DNA of 64,000 bases from Acidimicrobiales bacterium (GTDB lineage: Bacteria > Actinomycetota > Acidimicrobiia > Acidimicrobiales > Aldehydirespiratoraceae). The DNA is taken from assembly GCA_033344915.1 (NCBI GenBank), contig JAWPML010000001.1:472369-536368 (forward strand). Reading direction: 5' to 3'. Below are positions 5,070 to 18,507 of the stretch, piece after piece. Numbering within the stretch: position 1 is the stretch's first letter; each line of letters starts with the position of its first letter. The notes under the pieces were generated by a model. That model saw only the letters and a list, made by a program, of their open reading frames with translations. It had not been told where the DNA came from and did not search any database. The position numbers were made by a program, and so were the translations under genes.

Positions 5070-7379
5070 ATGCAGATCAACCCACCCCCGTCGTCTTCAT
5101 CCGCCGCGTCGGGCTGGCCGACGGTGCTGCGCCCGGCGCCCGTCCTGGCCGGTCTCGGAACGTTCCTACTCACCGCCGCGTCCATCAGCTTCGTGGCTGC
5201 CCGCTGGGACCGGTTCGGTCCGGGCGGACGATTCGCCGCTCTGCTCGGCTTCTCCGTGTTGGTGTTCGGCTGCGGCTTCGCCCTGCGCCGCGTGGCGCCG
5301 ACGACCGCTCGCTCGTTGGACGTCCTGATTGCCGCGCTCGTGCCGGTGGACGTCGCCGCGCTGGCGGTCGTGGGTGGCGCGTCCTGGCCGGCGGTCCTGC
5401 TGGTCAGCGGGCCGGTCACACTCCTGGCCGCCGAGGTCCTCCGGTCGCGGGACCGGCGACTCGCCCCGGTCACGGCGCTCGGGACCGTGTCCGGCGGTGT
5501 CCTGCTTCTCGCCGGCGTCGCCGCCGGCTACGACATCGCCATGCCGCCGTTGGTCGCGGCACTCGGTCTGGTGGGGTGCGTCGTCGTTCCGTGGAGCCGG
5601 GAGCGCATCGCCGGCCCGATCTGGGCCGTCCTCGCGGGACTCGCTCCGGCCCTTCGCGTCCTCGACGACGTTGCGTTCACCGGCAGTGGCACGATGCGCC
5701 GACTCGGGCTGCTCGACGCCACCGCCTGGGAGGCGACGCTCCTCTCCGGGACGGTCGCGGCGACCGCATTGGTGATCGCCGCGGTGCGCAGGCGCAGCCT
5801 GCCGATCGGATTGCTGGGCAGTGCCGTGATGGTCACCACCGCCGCCGCGATGTGGGCCGAGCACCAGCCTCCCCGGTCACTGCTGATCGTCGCCGCTGCG
5901 ATCGTGATCGCGCTGGCCGAGATCGCGCTCTCGGATCGCCGGGTCGCCGCGTTCCGACTGGACGACGCCGTCGCGGTGATCAGTGGCGCCGTGTCCGCGG
6001 GGGTCGCGGCGATGGCGATGTCCGTCGTTCTTCCCGAGGGAATCGTTCCCGGAATCGAGTGGGCGTATGCCGGTGGAACGCTGGCGTTCGCGTGGATCGT
6101 GCGAGACATCCGGACGGCCCGCCGTCCGGGCACGTCGTGGCTCGAGATGGTCGTGGCCGGCCCGCCGTCGGCCGTCACGAGTTGGGCGATCGCCGTGACG
6201 ACCCTCGCCACCGTGACCCTCGCGACCTCGCCGACGTCCGCGGGGATCGTCGCGGTCTCCCTCGCCGTCGCCGCGGTCGGCTCCCGGCGCATGCATCGCC
6301 ACGAGCTGGGATGGTCCCTCGCGGTCGCCGCCGGCGCGCTGGTTGCCGGCGCGACGCCCGTGATCGCCATCCTCGCGGTGGCGGTGGCGGTCGTCGTCAT
6401 CGCCGTGGTGACCGTCGCCGCCGGCCGGCAGGACCGGCTGCTCGGTCGTCAGGTGGTCCTCGGGGCGTTGGTGCCGGTCGCGGTTGCCGGCGGGGCGGCG
6501 GCGGAAGCGTTGTCGCCGTTCGTGGCCGGCCTCGTGGTCGCCGGTGGTCTCTGGCTCCTCGCTCTGATCGTCGATGCGGAGGACCCGGCCATCGCCCACG
6601 TCGCTCGTGGGGCGGGTGTGGCCTCGCTCGTCGCCGTCACGCCCGATGATCCGGTCCTCGTGGCCTGGTCGCTGGCCGTCGTCTGCCTGCTCTTCGTCGC
6701 CCACCATGCCGCGAGCCGCCAACACTCGAGCGCCGTCATGGCGGCCGCATCTGCAGCGGTGGCGCTCGGACTGGTGACCACCGATCGACTCGAGACACGG
6801 CTCGTGGTGTTCTCGCTCGTCGTCGCGACAGGCGGTGTCGCGCTGACGGCCCTCGGCGTCGACCGGGTGCTCGTCTCGGACCGGGCCGCCCGCGCCGCGT
6901 TCGCGGGAACCGGCGGGTTCATCGTGTGGTGGGCCTCGCTGGTCGGTCTCGCCGCGGCCGGCGTCGTGAGCCCCGAGCCGTACGTCTACCCGGTGCTGAT
7001 CGGCGTTGGCGTGGCGATCCGTGCCTCGCACCCCGGTACTCGACCCGAATCGGCACAGTGGTTCGCGGTCGGAGTTCCGGTTGCACTCGCCGGCGCGCTG
7101 GCGTTCGCGATGCGGGTGTCCACGGGGAACGCGCCGCATCTGTTGGTGTTCGGCGGCGTGGCCCTTGCCCTGACGATCGTGGGTGGATGGCGAGGACACC
7201 ACCCGGCGCTGGTGCTCGGGGCCGGGGCGACGGTCGCCGTGGGCACGTATGCCGCCCTCGACACGGTCGTGGGCATCGAGAGCTGGAGCTGGTTGGTCAT
7301 CAGCGGCGCGATCGCGCTGACGGTCGCGGCCCTGCTGGAGATCGTCGAGCCGGCCGAGGCTGCGGAGGCGAGCGGCTGA
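5070..7379 (+). CDS. large polytopic membrane protein, 769 aa
   Basis: Starts at ATG 5070 (MQINPPPSS); the frame is open further upstream but that part overlaps parC and lacks a membrane-protein look. After a short Pro/Ser-rich N-terminus the protein is almost entirely hydrophobic, with some 20 or more predicted transmembrane helices separated by short Arg-containing loops. The first helices (FLLTAASISFVAARWDRFG) resemble the actinobacterial SCO7613 C-terminal-domain/DUF2157-like membrane proteins, whose function is unknown to me. No transporter motif, glycosyltransferase signature or catalytic residue is evident. It is convergent with the aminotransferase gene, one base away. Confidence 0.75.
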   Translation: MQINPPPSSSSAASGWPTVLRPAPVLAGLGTFLLTAASISFVAARWDRFGPGGRFAALLGFSVLVFGCGFALRRVAPTTARSLDVLIAALVPVDVAALAVVGGASWPAVLLVSGPVTLLAAEVLRSRDRRLAPVTALGTVSGGVLLLAGVAAGYDIAMPPLVAALGLVGCVVVPWSRERIAGPIWAVLAGLAPALRVLDDVAFTGSGTMRRLGLLDATAWEATLLSGTVAATALVIAAVRRRSLPIGLLGSAVMVTTAAAMWAEHQPPRSLLIVAAAIVIALAEIALSDRRVAAFRLDDAVAVISGAVSAGVAAMAMSVVLPEGIVPGIEWAYAGGTLAFAWIVRDIRTARRPGTSWLEMVVAGPPSAVTSWAIAVTTLATVTLATSPTSAGIVAVSLAVAAVGSRRMHRHELGWSLAVAAGALVAGATPVIAILAVAVAVVVIAVVTVAAGRQDRLLGRQVVLGALVPVAVAGGAAAEALSPFVAGLVVAGGLWLLALIVDAEDPAIAHVARGAGVASLVAVTPDDPVLVAWSLAVVCLLFVAHHAASRQHSSAVMAAASAAVALGLVTTDRLETRLVVFSLVVATGGVALTALGVDRVLVSDRAARAAFAGTGGFIVWWASLVGLAAAGVVSPEPYVYPVLIGVGVAIRASHPGTRPESAQWFAVGVPVALAGALAFAMRVSTGNAPHLLVFGGVALALTIVGGWRGHHPALVLGAGATVAVGTYAALDTVVGIESWSWLVISGAIALTVAALLEIVEPAEAAEASG

Positions 7380-7380
7380 G

Positions 7381-8619
7381 TCAGCGGGCCGCGTCGGCCA
7401 TCACGTCGACGATCCGATCGATGTCGGCGTCGTCGATGACGAGTGGGGGACACAGGGCGAGCCAGTCGTCGACCCCCCGCAGGATCACGCCGGCGTCGAA
7501 CATGCGGTCCCGCACGGTGGTGGCGTCGCGGCCCGCCGGCAGCACCGCGGCGTAGACGGCGCCGACCCCGCGATAGCCGGCGAGTACGCCATCGCTCACG
7601 AGGGCGTCGAACCCGTGCCGGAACCGTTCGCCGATCGCCAGGGCGCGGGCGACCAGACCCTCACGCTCCATGATCTCGATGTTGGCGAGCGCGGCGGCCG
7701 AGGACGCGGGGTGACCGCTGTAGGTGTAGCCGTGCCGGAAGAGGAAGGCGGGATCGGCTTCGAGCACGTCGCAGACCGCCCGTGAACAGATCACGCCGCC
7801 GAACGGGAGATAGCCGCTCGTCACGCCCTTGGCGAAGGTGATCAGATCCGGGGTGACGTCGTAGGTCTGGCTCGCGAACCAGGATCCGGTGCGTCCGAAC
7901 CCGCTGATCACCTCGTCGAACACGAGCAGTGCGCCATGGTCGTCGCACAGGCGACGAAGGCCCTCGAGATACCCGTCCGGCGGAGGGAACACGCCGCCTG
8001 CGCCCTGGACCGGTTCGGTGATGACGGCGGCGATCCGGTCGCCGTGCTCGGCGAAGAGTCGGGCGGCGGACTCGATGTCGTCGCCGTCCATCTGCTCGAA
8101 GCCGGACACCATCTCGCCCCAACCCTTGCGGTTGAGCGGGAGGCCCTGCGCGCTGGTGCCGCCGAAGTTGACCCCGTGGTAGGCGCGGTCGCGGCGGATG
8201 ATGATCTGGCGGTCACTTCCCTCGTCGCCCTCGCTCCCCGGCGATCCGGCCCGGAGCTGGGCCACCAGCCGGCTGATCTTGAGCGCCGAGTCGACCGACT
8301 CGGAGCCCGAACTGCAGAGGAACACGCGTCCATCGGGGTGCGGCGACAGCGAGCGAATGCGGTCGGCGGCGGCCTCCGCCGGACCGTTCGTGAAGGGATC
8401 GAAGGTGCTGTAGGTGTCGAGCTGGCGCATCTGGGCGCTGATCGCGTCGATGATCTCTGTCCGCCCGTGGCCCACGTTGCAGTACCAGAGCGACGCCAGC
8501 GCATCGATGTAGTCGTTGCCCTCGTCGTCGTAGACGCGCACGCCCTCGGCCCGCACGAGCATGCGGAACTGTTCCTTCGCGGGCGGTGCGAAGGGGTGCA
8601 GGAGCGGGGGTGTGGTCAT
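7381..8619 (-). CDS. class III pyridoxal-phosphate aminotransferase
   Basis: Fold-type I omega-aminotransferase of 412 aa that moves an amino group from a terminal amine (for example putrescine, gamma-aminobutyrate or beta-alanine) to a keto acid. Visible marks are WYCNVGHG near the N-terminus, the PLP-phosphate loop CSSGSESVDSALK, the Asp motif VFDEVISGFGRTG and the Schiff-base Lys in TFAKGVTSGYLP. The start at 8619 is chosen because GGAGG lies 7 nt upstream (8627-8631) and the start overlaps the GNAT stop by 4 nt. Its place next to an FAD amine oxidase, agmatinase and a Pot transporter supports a polyamine-catabolic role; the exact substrate is not settled by sequence. Confidence 0.88.
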   Translation of the reverse strand: MTTPPLLHPFAPPAKEQFRMLVRAEGVRVYDDEGNDYIDALASLWYCNVGHGRTEIIDAISAQMRQLDTYSTFDPFTNGPAEAAADRIRSLSPHPDGRVFLCSSGSESVDSALKISRLVAQLRAGSPGSEGDEGSDRQIIIRRDRAYHGVNFGGTSAQGLPLNRKGWGEMVSGFEQMDGDDIESAARLFAEHGDRIAAVITEPVQGAGGVFPPPDGYLEGLRRLCDDHGALLVFDEVISGFGRTGSWFASQTYDVTPDLITFAKGVTSGYLPFGGVICSRAVCDVLEADPAFLFRHGYTYSGHPASSAAALANIEIMEREGLVARALAIGERFRHGFDALVSDGVLAGYRGVGAVYAAVLPAGRDATTVRDRMFDAGVILRGVDDWLALCPPLVIDDADIDRIVDVMADAAR

Positions 8620-16952: not shown

Positions 16953-17711
16953 TCAGCTGAAGGTGGGGATCGCCTCGATGATCTGCTGCTGCTCGTCGGC
17001 CCCGAATCCGTAGAAGAGTTCGGTGCCGGTGGTGAGGTCCGGCGACATGACCTTCATCTGGCTGTTCACGCGGACGCCGAAGGTCTGCCACGTCACGAAC
17101 GACGGGTCCCACAGCATCTCGGGCGTCTCGACGCCGGTGTCGGCCAGGAAGTCGAGGGCGTACTCGAAGTCGTCCTGGGCGCCGACGCCGAGGACCTGGA
17201 TCTCACCTTCGTGCTCTCGAGCGAACTGCTCGATGGCGGGGCCCTCACGCCGGCACGTGGGTCAATGGGGCGCCCAGAACCAGAGCAGCACGGGACGGTC
17301 GCCGGTCACCGCGTCCGCGATCGTGGTCGGTTCACCGGTCTTGACGTCGAGGACCTCGAGGGTGCGGACGTCGTCGCTCGGCTCGAGATCGTCGATGTTC
17401 GTCTCGGCGGCGGCCGCGGCGTCGACCGGTGCGGTGGCGTCGCCCTCATCGGCAGGATCGGTCCCGTCCTCGACGGCCGGATCGGTCCCGTCCTCGACGG
17501 CCGGATCGGTCCCGGTCTCGGTATCGGTCTCGGTGGGTTCGGGTCCGTCGACGTCGGTGTCATCCGATCCGGCGTTCACGCTTCCCGTGCTCGTTCCGGT
17601 GCCCGTGTCCGCCTCGGGGGCGGTGGTCGTCGCGGGGTCGGAGCCGCATGCCGACGCCGTCAACACCAGCGCGATGACGACGGCGAGCAGCCCTGCGGGG
17701 GACGAGGGCAT
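16953..17711 (-). CDS. thioredoxin-domain (TlpA-like) lipoprotein with in-frame UGA at the first active-site Cys; probable selenoprotein
   Basis: Read through the TGA at 17262-17264, the frame gives 252 residues. A signal peptide with lipobox TASAC (lipid Cys22) is followed by an acidic Thr/Asp/Glu linker (residues ~25-110) and a thioredoxin-like domain. The active site reads WFWAPH-U-PTCRR: Sec150 stands where TlpA proteins have the nucleophilic Cys of CxxC, and Cys153 is the resolving residue. The 102 sense codons after the TGA hold no other stop and encode a sensible domain to a TGA at 16953-16955. Conventional calling would end the protein at residue 149, one residue before the redox centre. 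The usual cis-Pro motif is not obvious (GVRVNSQMKV). Alternatives are a Cys-to-stop mutation or a sequencing error. The selA, selB, selC and selD genes are not in this window. Confidence 0.72.
17235..17251 (-). promoter_or_regulatory. candidate bacterial SECIS stem-loop
   Basis: In the mRNA a GGCG/CGCC helix closes a 9-nt loop starting U-G, 11 to 27 nt after the UGA (stem begins 14 nt from its first base). Bacterial SECIS elements are short hairpins directly 3' of the UGA with a G among the first loop bases; this one is at the short end of the usual distance. Alternative pairings (GCC with GGC) exist. Folding has not been computed. Confidence 0.3.
17455..17514 (-). repeat. 24-bp tandem repeat encoding the lipoprotein linker
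   Basis: Two identical 24-bp copies (17455-17478, 17479-17502) and a half copy. They encode repeats of TDPAVEDG in the acidic linker between lipid anchor and thioredoxin domain. The exact identity suggests recent slippage. Confidence 0.85.
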
Positions 17712-17850: not shown

Positions 17851-18507
17851 ATGGCACTACGTATCAACGACATCGCTCCTGACTTCAAAGCAACAACGAC
17901 GGAGGGCACCATCGAGTTCCACGATTGGATCGGCGATGGCTGGGCCCTGCTGTTCTCCCACCCGAAGGACTTCACGCCGGTGTGCACCACCGAGCTGGGC
18001 ACCGTCGCCGGCATGAAGGACGACTTCGCGGCTCGGAACTGCAAGCTCATCGGCATCAGCGTCGACGGGGTGGACGACCACGAGGGCTGGGCGGCCGACA
18101 TCCAGACGGCCACCGGCCACGCGCTCAACTACCCGCTGATCGGCGATCCGAACCTCGAGATCGTGAAGGCCTACGACATGCTTCCCGCGGATGCGGGCGA
18201 GACCTCCGAAGGTCGCAGCGCGGGCGACAACGCGACCGCCCGCACCGTGTTCATCATCGGTCCCGACAAGCGCATCAAGGCGCAGCTCACCTACCCGATG
18301 ACGACGGGCCGCAACTTCGACGAGATCCTCCGGATGCTCGATTCGATCCAACTGACGGCGCAGGAGCAGGTCGCCACGCCGGCGAACTGGAAGGACGGCG
18401 ACGACGTCATCGTCGTGCCCTCCGTCTCGGACGACGACGCCCGGGCCAAGCACGGCGAGTTCCGTGCCCCGGTGCCCTACCTGCGCTACGTCCCCGACCC
18501 CCGCTGA
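17851..18507 (+). CDS. 1-Cys peroxiredoxin (Prx6 subfamily)
   Basis: 218-aa thiol peroxidase that reduces hydrogen peroxide and organic hydroperoxides. The peroxidatic Cys lies in HPKDFTPVCTTELG, the Prx6/AhpC hallmark. The C-terminal extension (residues ~160-218, with PVPYLRYVPDPR) is that of the Prx6 subfamily, and no AhpC-type C-terminal resolving Cys is present. ATG 17851 chosen; the frame is open upstream but unstructured. It is divergent from the candidate seleno-thioredoxin lipoprotein with 139 bp between the starts. A shared oxidative-stress response is plausible, though one protein is cytoplasmic and the other is outside the membrane. Confidence 0.93.
   Translation: MALRINDIAPDFKATTTEGTIEFHDWIGDGWALLFSHPKDFTPVCTTELGTVAGMKDDFAARNCKLIGISVDGVDDHEGWAADIQTATGHALNYPLIGDPNLEIVKAYDMLPADAGETSEGRSAGDNATARTVFIIGPDKRIKAQLTYPMTTGRNFDEILRMLDSIQLTAQEQVATPANWKDGDDVIVVPSVSDDDARAKHGEFRAPVPYLRYVPDPR

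Follow-up and report, generated by a model that had tools for sequence, protein, structure and literature searches.

According to the part of the review PMC13188914 that was available, more than 110 prokaryotic selenoprotein families have been listed, most of which adopt a thioredoxin-like fold. Its Table 1 includes UxxC families described as 'Redoxin family protein' (PF08534; representative, HEU0032618.1) and 'Thiol-disulfide isomerase-like protein' (cd02966), with MGB1650493.1 also among the UxxC entries, and the accessible text of PMC1088965 lists four Sargasso Sea sequences of the UxxC thiol-disulfide isomerase-like type. The bacterial SECIS consensus in the legend of Fig. 2A of PMC13188914 comprises a loop of 3-9 nt on a stem of 4-16 bp, located 16-37 nt from the UGA, a G in the first two loop positions, and a folding energy of at most -7.5 kcal/mol. 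A word search of the available text of this review returned no mention of Actinobacteria, Actinomycetota, or lipoprotein, and a word search of the accessible text of PMC5029168, PMC2398784, and PMC12013277 returned no passage on a family such as the one described below. Among the literature on selenocysteine and selenoproteins in Acidimicrobiia, Ilumatobacter, and Acidimicrobiales, no account of the family was found, as judged by titles.

The window, that is, the whole stretch of 64,000 nucleotides analysed here from an Acidimicrobiales bacterium, carries a minus-strand gene that, we are highly confident, encodes an extracytoplasmic seleno-lipoprotein with a thioredoxin-like domain in which Sec150 and Cys153 (UPTC) form a redox pair. 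Its best PDB profile matches are M. tuberculosis DsbF (3ios; E 3.5e-24) and DsbE/MPT53 (1lu4; E 5.8e-21; next match, 2.4e-15), both of them actinobacterial extracytoplasmic oxidoreductases. Unlike DsbF and DsbE, to which it is 23-24% identical, the window protein has Sec in place of the first Cys and Asn-Ser where other homologues have Gln-Pro. It resembles the listed UxxC families in its best match (PF08534) and its UxxC motif, a comparison made by description and not by sequence (PMC13188914, available part). Since UxxC redoxin-fold selenoproteins are established, the protein is a new member of a kind already known, as far as it can be set beside the listed families by description; the arrangement of its SECIS is possibly new.

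A putative lipoprotein frame continued through UGA

The features of the gene, with the evidence for each in brackets, are as follows.

17711-16953, minus strand: seleno-lipoprotein coding sequence, 252 residues with UGA read as Sec, stop codon included (homologues)
17646-17711, minus strand: putative signal peptide with lipobox TASAC and presumably acylated Cys22 (pattern match)
17433-17645, minus strand: acidic Thr/Asp/Glu-rich linker, residues 23-93 (low model confidence)
16956-17375, minus strand: thioredoxin-fold (TlpA/DsbF-like) domain, residues 113-252 (profiles, predicted structure)
17262-17264, minus strand: UGA for selenocysteine 150, first residue of UPTC (homologue column TGA or TGC/TGT)
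17253-17255, minus strand: codon of Cys153, the presumed resolving Cys of UxxC (invariant column, 61 sequences)
17235-17261, minus strand: first nine codons after the UGA, a less regular structure that includes the 17235-17251 hairpin (fold excess in TGA forms)
17217-17233, minus strand: SECIS, UCGAGC-AGUUC-GCUCGA, with its loop starting 34 nt after the UGA (compensatory changes; no such hairpin in Cys homologues)
17061-17066, minus strand: Asn216-Ser217, aligned to the Gln-Pro (cis-proline position) of other homologues (alignment)

The earlier note had reported a minus-strand frame that is interrupted at TGA 17262-17264 directly after WFWAPH and is open for 102 codons onward. These coordinates were verified: the frame (17711-16953) reads MPSSPAGLLAVVIALVLTASAC... 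WFWAPH-UGA-PTCRRE..., and the 102 sense codons after the UGA end at a terminal TGA (16955-16953). Both the segment resembling a lipobox (Cys22) and the acidic linker that the note had claimed were present in frame as well. The lipobox was judged by a PROSITE-like pattern; it was found in 88 of the 91 relatives having an open upstream frame, versus 4 of 94 shuffles.

When the UGA was read through, the protein matched PF08534 (Redoxin; 38.1 bits versus a gathering cut-off of 26.6), PF00578 (34.3 bits), and PF00085 (26.5 bits), all above the cut-off and all spanning the UGA. These thioredoxin-fold matches across the UGA, the retention of the TGA column, and purifying selection downstream of it indicate that the continued frame is more than chance. 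The region after the UGA gave dN/dS values of 0.22-0.47 at dS of 0.65-0.97 when the window gene was compared with five relatives, all distinct, by simple Nei-Gojobori counts; among the pairs, L098 and L025 are the same gene. Standard gene calling would stop each protein of this type one residue short of the active site.

Across 108 distinct TGA places, a tally that leaves out every place at which no more than 60 codons stay open after the TGA (L095 and the UPFU paralogues described below) and the own-genome paralogues L052 and L053, His directly preceded Sec in all 108. The codon preceding the UGA (window 17265-17267) was CAT in 103 of them, and the base following the UGA was C in 102; CAT before and C after the UGA may form a recoding context.

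Predicted fold and probable function

AlphaFold2 predicted a confident domain from approximately residue 100 to 252, with a mean pLDDT of 97-98 in blocks of residues 101-250, and the predicted thioredoxin fold superposes on solved TlpA/DsbF-like members. DsbF (3ios) was the best structural match (Z 16.8, rmsd 2.5 over 132 residues), followed by DsbE/MPT53 (Z 16.2), while CcmG and ResA scored approximately 16, so that DsbE/MPT53, CcmG, and ResA tie with DsbF within 1 Z unit. Of the NCBIfam models considered (DsbE, ResA, TlpA, and HUIPC), none of those listed for the window protein reached its cut-off, and these identities were rejected; the DsbE model TIGR00385, for example, scored 37.9 bits, below its cut-off of 123.15. 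The model of the HUIPC thioredoxin-like selenoprotein, NF047660, gave no match to the window protein at E<=1, although the two are alike in the His before UxxC, as taken from the HUIPC name in Table 1 of PMC13188914 (available part).

At the site opposite CxxC, the usual residue in the thioredoxin fold is a cis-proline. In the window protein, this position is occupied by Asn216-Ser217, as judged from the sequence alignment. Asn-Ser was found in 53 of the 108 places (the clade of the window gene) and Gln-Pro in 44, and the remaining 11 were unclassified by pattern. One homologue of the Gln-Pro type, L128, comes from the record of the cultured Ilumatobacter nonamiensis YM16-303. Since Ser217 lies at the cis-proline position, activity is not simply transferable from Trx or TlpA proteins to the window protein.

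We infer from the sequence features that the protein is an exported, tethered Sec/Cys oxidoreductase; it probably reduces disulfides or peroxides outside the cytoplasm while anchored to the membrane. Secretion and acylation of Cys22 would leave the domain on the outer side of the membrane, tethered by the flexible acidic linker, where the selenolate would most likely attack cell-surface disulfides or peroxides and Cys153 would resolve the adduct of Sec150. That the reductase direction is likelier than the oxidase direction is a guess, as is any choice of substrate and electron donor for the Sec protein.

It is also conceivable, though in our judgement less likely than not, that the main activity of the selenoprotein is that of a peroxidase, or the oxidation of secreted proteins, and not disulfide reduction. 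Its best Pfam matches are Redoxin and AhpC-TSA, it has Asn-Ser at the cis-proline position, and its fold is close to DsbF/DsbE, with a lower score to peroxiredoxin Q (Z 14.7). Moreover, the neighbouring gene (window 17851-18507, plus strand) is a divergent Prx6-like peroxiredoxin whose Cys is an ordinary one. However, the best structural matches are thiol:disulfide oxidoreductases, the neighbouring Prx occurs in only 2 of the 80 loci of relatives (90-93% identical), and the UxxC pair is unlike the TxxU listed for Sec peroxiredoxins in the accessible part of PMC13188914. No conserved redox partner was recurrent among 47 neighbours from 24 loci (25 of 27 families listed), and parE or a relative of it was seen in 11 of the 80 loci.

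The earlier note had named disruptions in close relatives as a sign of a pseudogene. One syntenic copy is indeed disrupted, whereas the window's own copy is open throughout. The disrupted copy is that of L095 (at ca. 5700-6306), the closest syntenic relative found (parE, 93% identical), where a second TGA and a TAG stand at the 4th and 68th codons after the UGA, respectively, and the frame shifts ahead of the domain; both hairpins are intact despite the broken frame. Since the L095 copy is broken, the gene may be dispensable (recent loss), or the draft assembly may be faulty. Loss may thus occur near the lineage of the window gene, and its copy could itself be a pseudogene in decay, belonging to a genuine selenoprotein family. 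We consider this very improbable because the window copy has one start-to-stop frame with an intact lipobox, UxxC, and SECIS, and its dN/dS is 0.22-0.23 versus L094 and L096.

The SECIS hairpin and the stretch preceding it

A SECIS search after the UGA had been proposed in the earlier note, with the small hairpin at 17235-17251 as a weak candidate. A SECIS does exist, but it lies at 17217-17233, downstream of the hairpin that had been named; the latter, with a z of +0.40, showed no fold excess, kept no constant register among relatives, and was rejected as the SECIS. The 17217-17233 hairpin was spotted by folding relatives side by side. It folds at -8.0 kcal/mol (z -2.87) and agrees on every point with the published bacterial consensus, having a 6-bp stem and a 5-nt loop whose second and third positions are G and U; unlike that consensus, it is preceded by a second structured stretch between the UGA and the hairpin (PMC13188914, as far as available). 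Its loop, AGUUY, is also unlike the GGUC-type loops of selD and two paralogues in its own genome.

In an alignment of 55 distinct TGA sequences, 96.7% of the cells of the six-pair stem were paired, versus 11-49% with slid partners. Three of the pairs vary on both sides, with 17 double-changed cells versus 2.9 in shuffles. The same columns in 15 Cys sequences were 25.6% paired, no better than shuffles; this alignment used 15 of the 18 Cys sequences, the three distant own-genome Cys paralogues being left out here and kept in the fold-excess comparisons. All five core pairs were present in 103 of the 108 distinct TGA places, and the loop was AGUUC or AGUUU in 106. The stem itself was varied, occurring as CGAGC/GCUCG, UGAGC/GCUCA, CGGGC/GCCCG, UCGGC/GCCGA, CGCGC/GCGCG, and UGCAC/GUGCA. 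RNAalifold, applied to 34 sequences over 81 columns, predicted the 17217-17233 helix only, with five of its pairs. A long lower stem closing both hairpins, which had appeared with the window sequence alone (60-66 nt), was set aside because RNAalifold on these 34 relatives kept nothing beyond the core of the 17217-17233 helix.

Alanine within the stem was encoded by GCU in 52 of the 55 sequences, even though these genes use GCC most often for alanine, and by GCC in the three sequences in which the pairing partner is G. Since the codon choice follows the pairing, the hairpin constrains the encoded VEQFAR segment. The natural occurrence of Sec homologues that have the SECIS and Cys homologues that lack it would offer a clean test of how a recoding RNA constrains its host protein.

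The first nine codons after the UGA (17235-17261) also carry structure, with a pairing register that varies between relatives. Against synonymous-codon shuffles, their mean z was -1.85 in the 55 TGA sequences versus -0.36 in the 18 Cys sequences, and that of the seven hairpin codons was -2.95 in TGA forms and -0.41 in Cys forms. When 14 windows along the gene were compared, the four within 18 codons after the UGA gave mean z values of -1.84 to -2.84 in TGA forms and -0.15 to -0.46 in Cys forms; the other ten gave -0.32 to 0.01 and -0.74 to 0.30, respectively. From these sequence comparisons, the 17235-17261 stretch may be either part of the recoding signal or a spacer.

A broader reading, which we put forward tentatively as possible rather than probable, is that of a class-wide selenoprotein family with a two-part recoding signal, consisting of the AGUUY hairpin and an upstream selected structure free in sequence and register, and with the loss of the cis-proline in one clade. 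If the two-part signal is true, RNA would dictate part of the protein (the VEQFAR helix), and the loss of the cis-proline in the window's clade would suggest a different substrate or chemistry at the cell surface.

An RNA model of the family SECIS was run on the host genome and recovered the gene itself (E 2e-14) and two paralogues (E 0.002 and 0.25). We attribute to chance the remaining 11 of 14 matches, none of which was stronger than E 0.1. The genome's own selD was not among the matches, so the model is family-specific.

Conservation of the TGA and presence of the selenocysteine machinery

The earlier note had placed the TGA at the first Cys of CxxC and proposed that homologues be aligned at residue 150. 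At this column, 79 homologous places carried either TGA (61) or TGC/TGT (18), in line with that claim. In 59 of the 61 TGA places, the codon was followed by UxxC and 94-117 open codons; the remaining two belong to the UPFU paralogue. A homologue was matched at E<=1e-8 in 188 of the 397 sampled genomes of the order, and the codon was readable in 104 genomes, with Cys in 12 and TGA in 92, so that the TGA form occurs in at least 92 of the 397. When 296 genomes sampled from the class were scanned with the SECIS RNA model, 35 matched, some of them in families that do not belong to the window's order. At the level of the phylum, a match at E<=1e-14 was obtained in 8 of 296 sampled genomes; three of these lie outside the class, each with one TGA.

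The TGA tracked SelA: a strong SelA match was found in 89 of the 92 TGA genomes versus 2 of the 12 Cys genomes (Fisher p 7e-10), a tally that covers the 104 genomes with a readable codon among the 188 matching ones and counts the 7 weak SelA matches of 244 as absent. TGA without a SelA found was seen in G170, G299, and G376 (83, 93, and 73% complete, respectively), and Cys forms despite SelA in G019 and G325. In a quick tree of 126 rows, five changes between Sec and Cys were counted versus 17.1 for shuffled labels, and its starred branches force only one label change.

In named records, TGA stood at each of the 96 places read in 80 loci, which is not an unbiased frequency since the search patterns came from the family and only the 80 best of 168 relatives were kept; the 96 include L095 and two UPFU copies. 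A further genome set gave 57 TGA places, that of the window included, of which 42 were the same DNA in both sets, leading to the 108 distinct places. The titles of 76 of the best 80 records name Acidimicrobiia, Acidimicrobiales, Acidimicrobiaceae, Ilumatobacter, or other actinobacteria; the remaining four comprise two 'bacterium', one Candidatus Hopanoidivorans, and one Acidobacteria. The Acidobacteria title (L124) is probably wrong since this copy is identical around the TGA to L044, a copy in a genome of the window's order. Two such TGA genes were observed close together in the same orientation in L075, L076, L080, L082, L084, L089, L093, L129, L135, and L141.

The machinery for selenocysteine, whose absence from the genome would have told against the selenoprotein proposed in the earlier note, was found in full in the host genome (a single contig of 4.48 Mb): tRNA-Sec with a UCA anticodon (64 bits versus a 47-bit cut-off), SelA (E 2e-95), SelB (275.7 bits versus a cut-off of 242.25), whose gene adjoins selA, and SelD (E 2e-107). 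The genome sequences thus show a conserved recoded codon, a conserved hairpin, and the machinery. In the route that we propose, the standard one in bacteria, SelD would make selenophosphate, SelA would turn Ser-tRNA-Sec into Sec-tRNA-Sec, and SelB, bound to the SECIS, would bring Sec-tRNA-Sec to the UGA 34 nt upstream of the loop, leading to the insertion of selenium.

That the gene truly ends at this TGA and is truncated, or that a sequencing error hides a Cys codon there, is the least credible explanation of all: TGC/TGT to TGA is a small change, some relatives carry TGC/TGT, and L095 has further stops, but the TGA recurs in both sets of places described above and tracks SelA, the region after it is under purifying selection, and a covarying SECIS follows it in the TGA forms and is absent in the Cys forms. 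The seleno-lipoprotein points to a use of selenium in redox chemistry outside the cytoplasm, in a group whose genomes have mostly been assembled from metagenomes.

Other TGA-containing genes were observed in the same genome and in relatives. The selD gene (L012, C1:1225971-1226897, minus strand) also encodes a selenoprotein: its frame contains a TGA, and a hairpin whose loop is of the GGUC type follows. Two paralogues, L052 (C1:4260180-4260542, minus strand; WFWAPW-U-PTC) and L053 (C1:986359-986622, minus strand; WFWAPW-U-TTC), are thioredoxin-like TGA genes whose starts resemble a lipobox and whose hairpins, with GGUC loops, lie nearer the UGA. A related lipoprotein, WFWAPW-U-P-F-U, has TGA for both Cys of CxxC; it occurs in L118 (minus strand, position 7724 of the reversed locus) and L123 (7649), and likewise in L034 and L041, and its sequence suggests that it is likely a double-Sec UxxU form. 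The UPFU gene has a weak CUAC-GGUC-GUAG hairpin with its loop 26 nt after the first UGA, which gives -3.0 kcal/mol when folded alone, another fold being better in a longer stretch.
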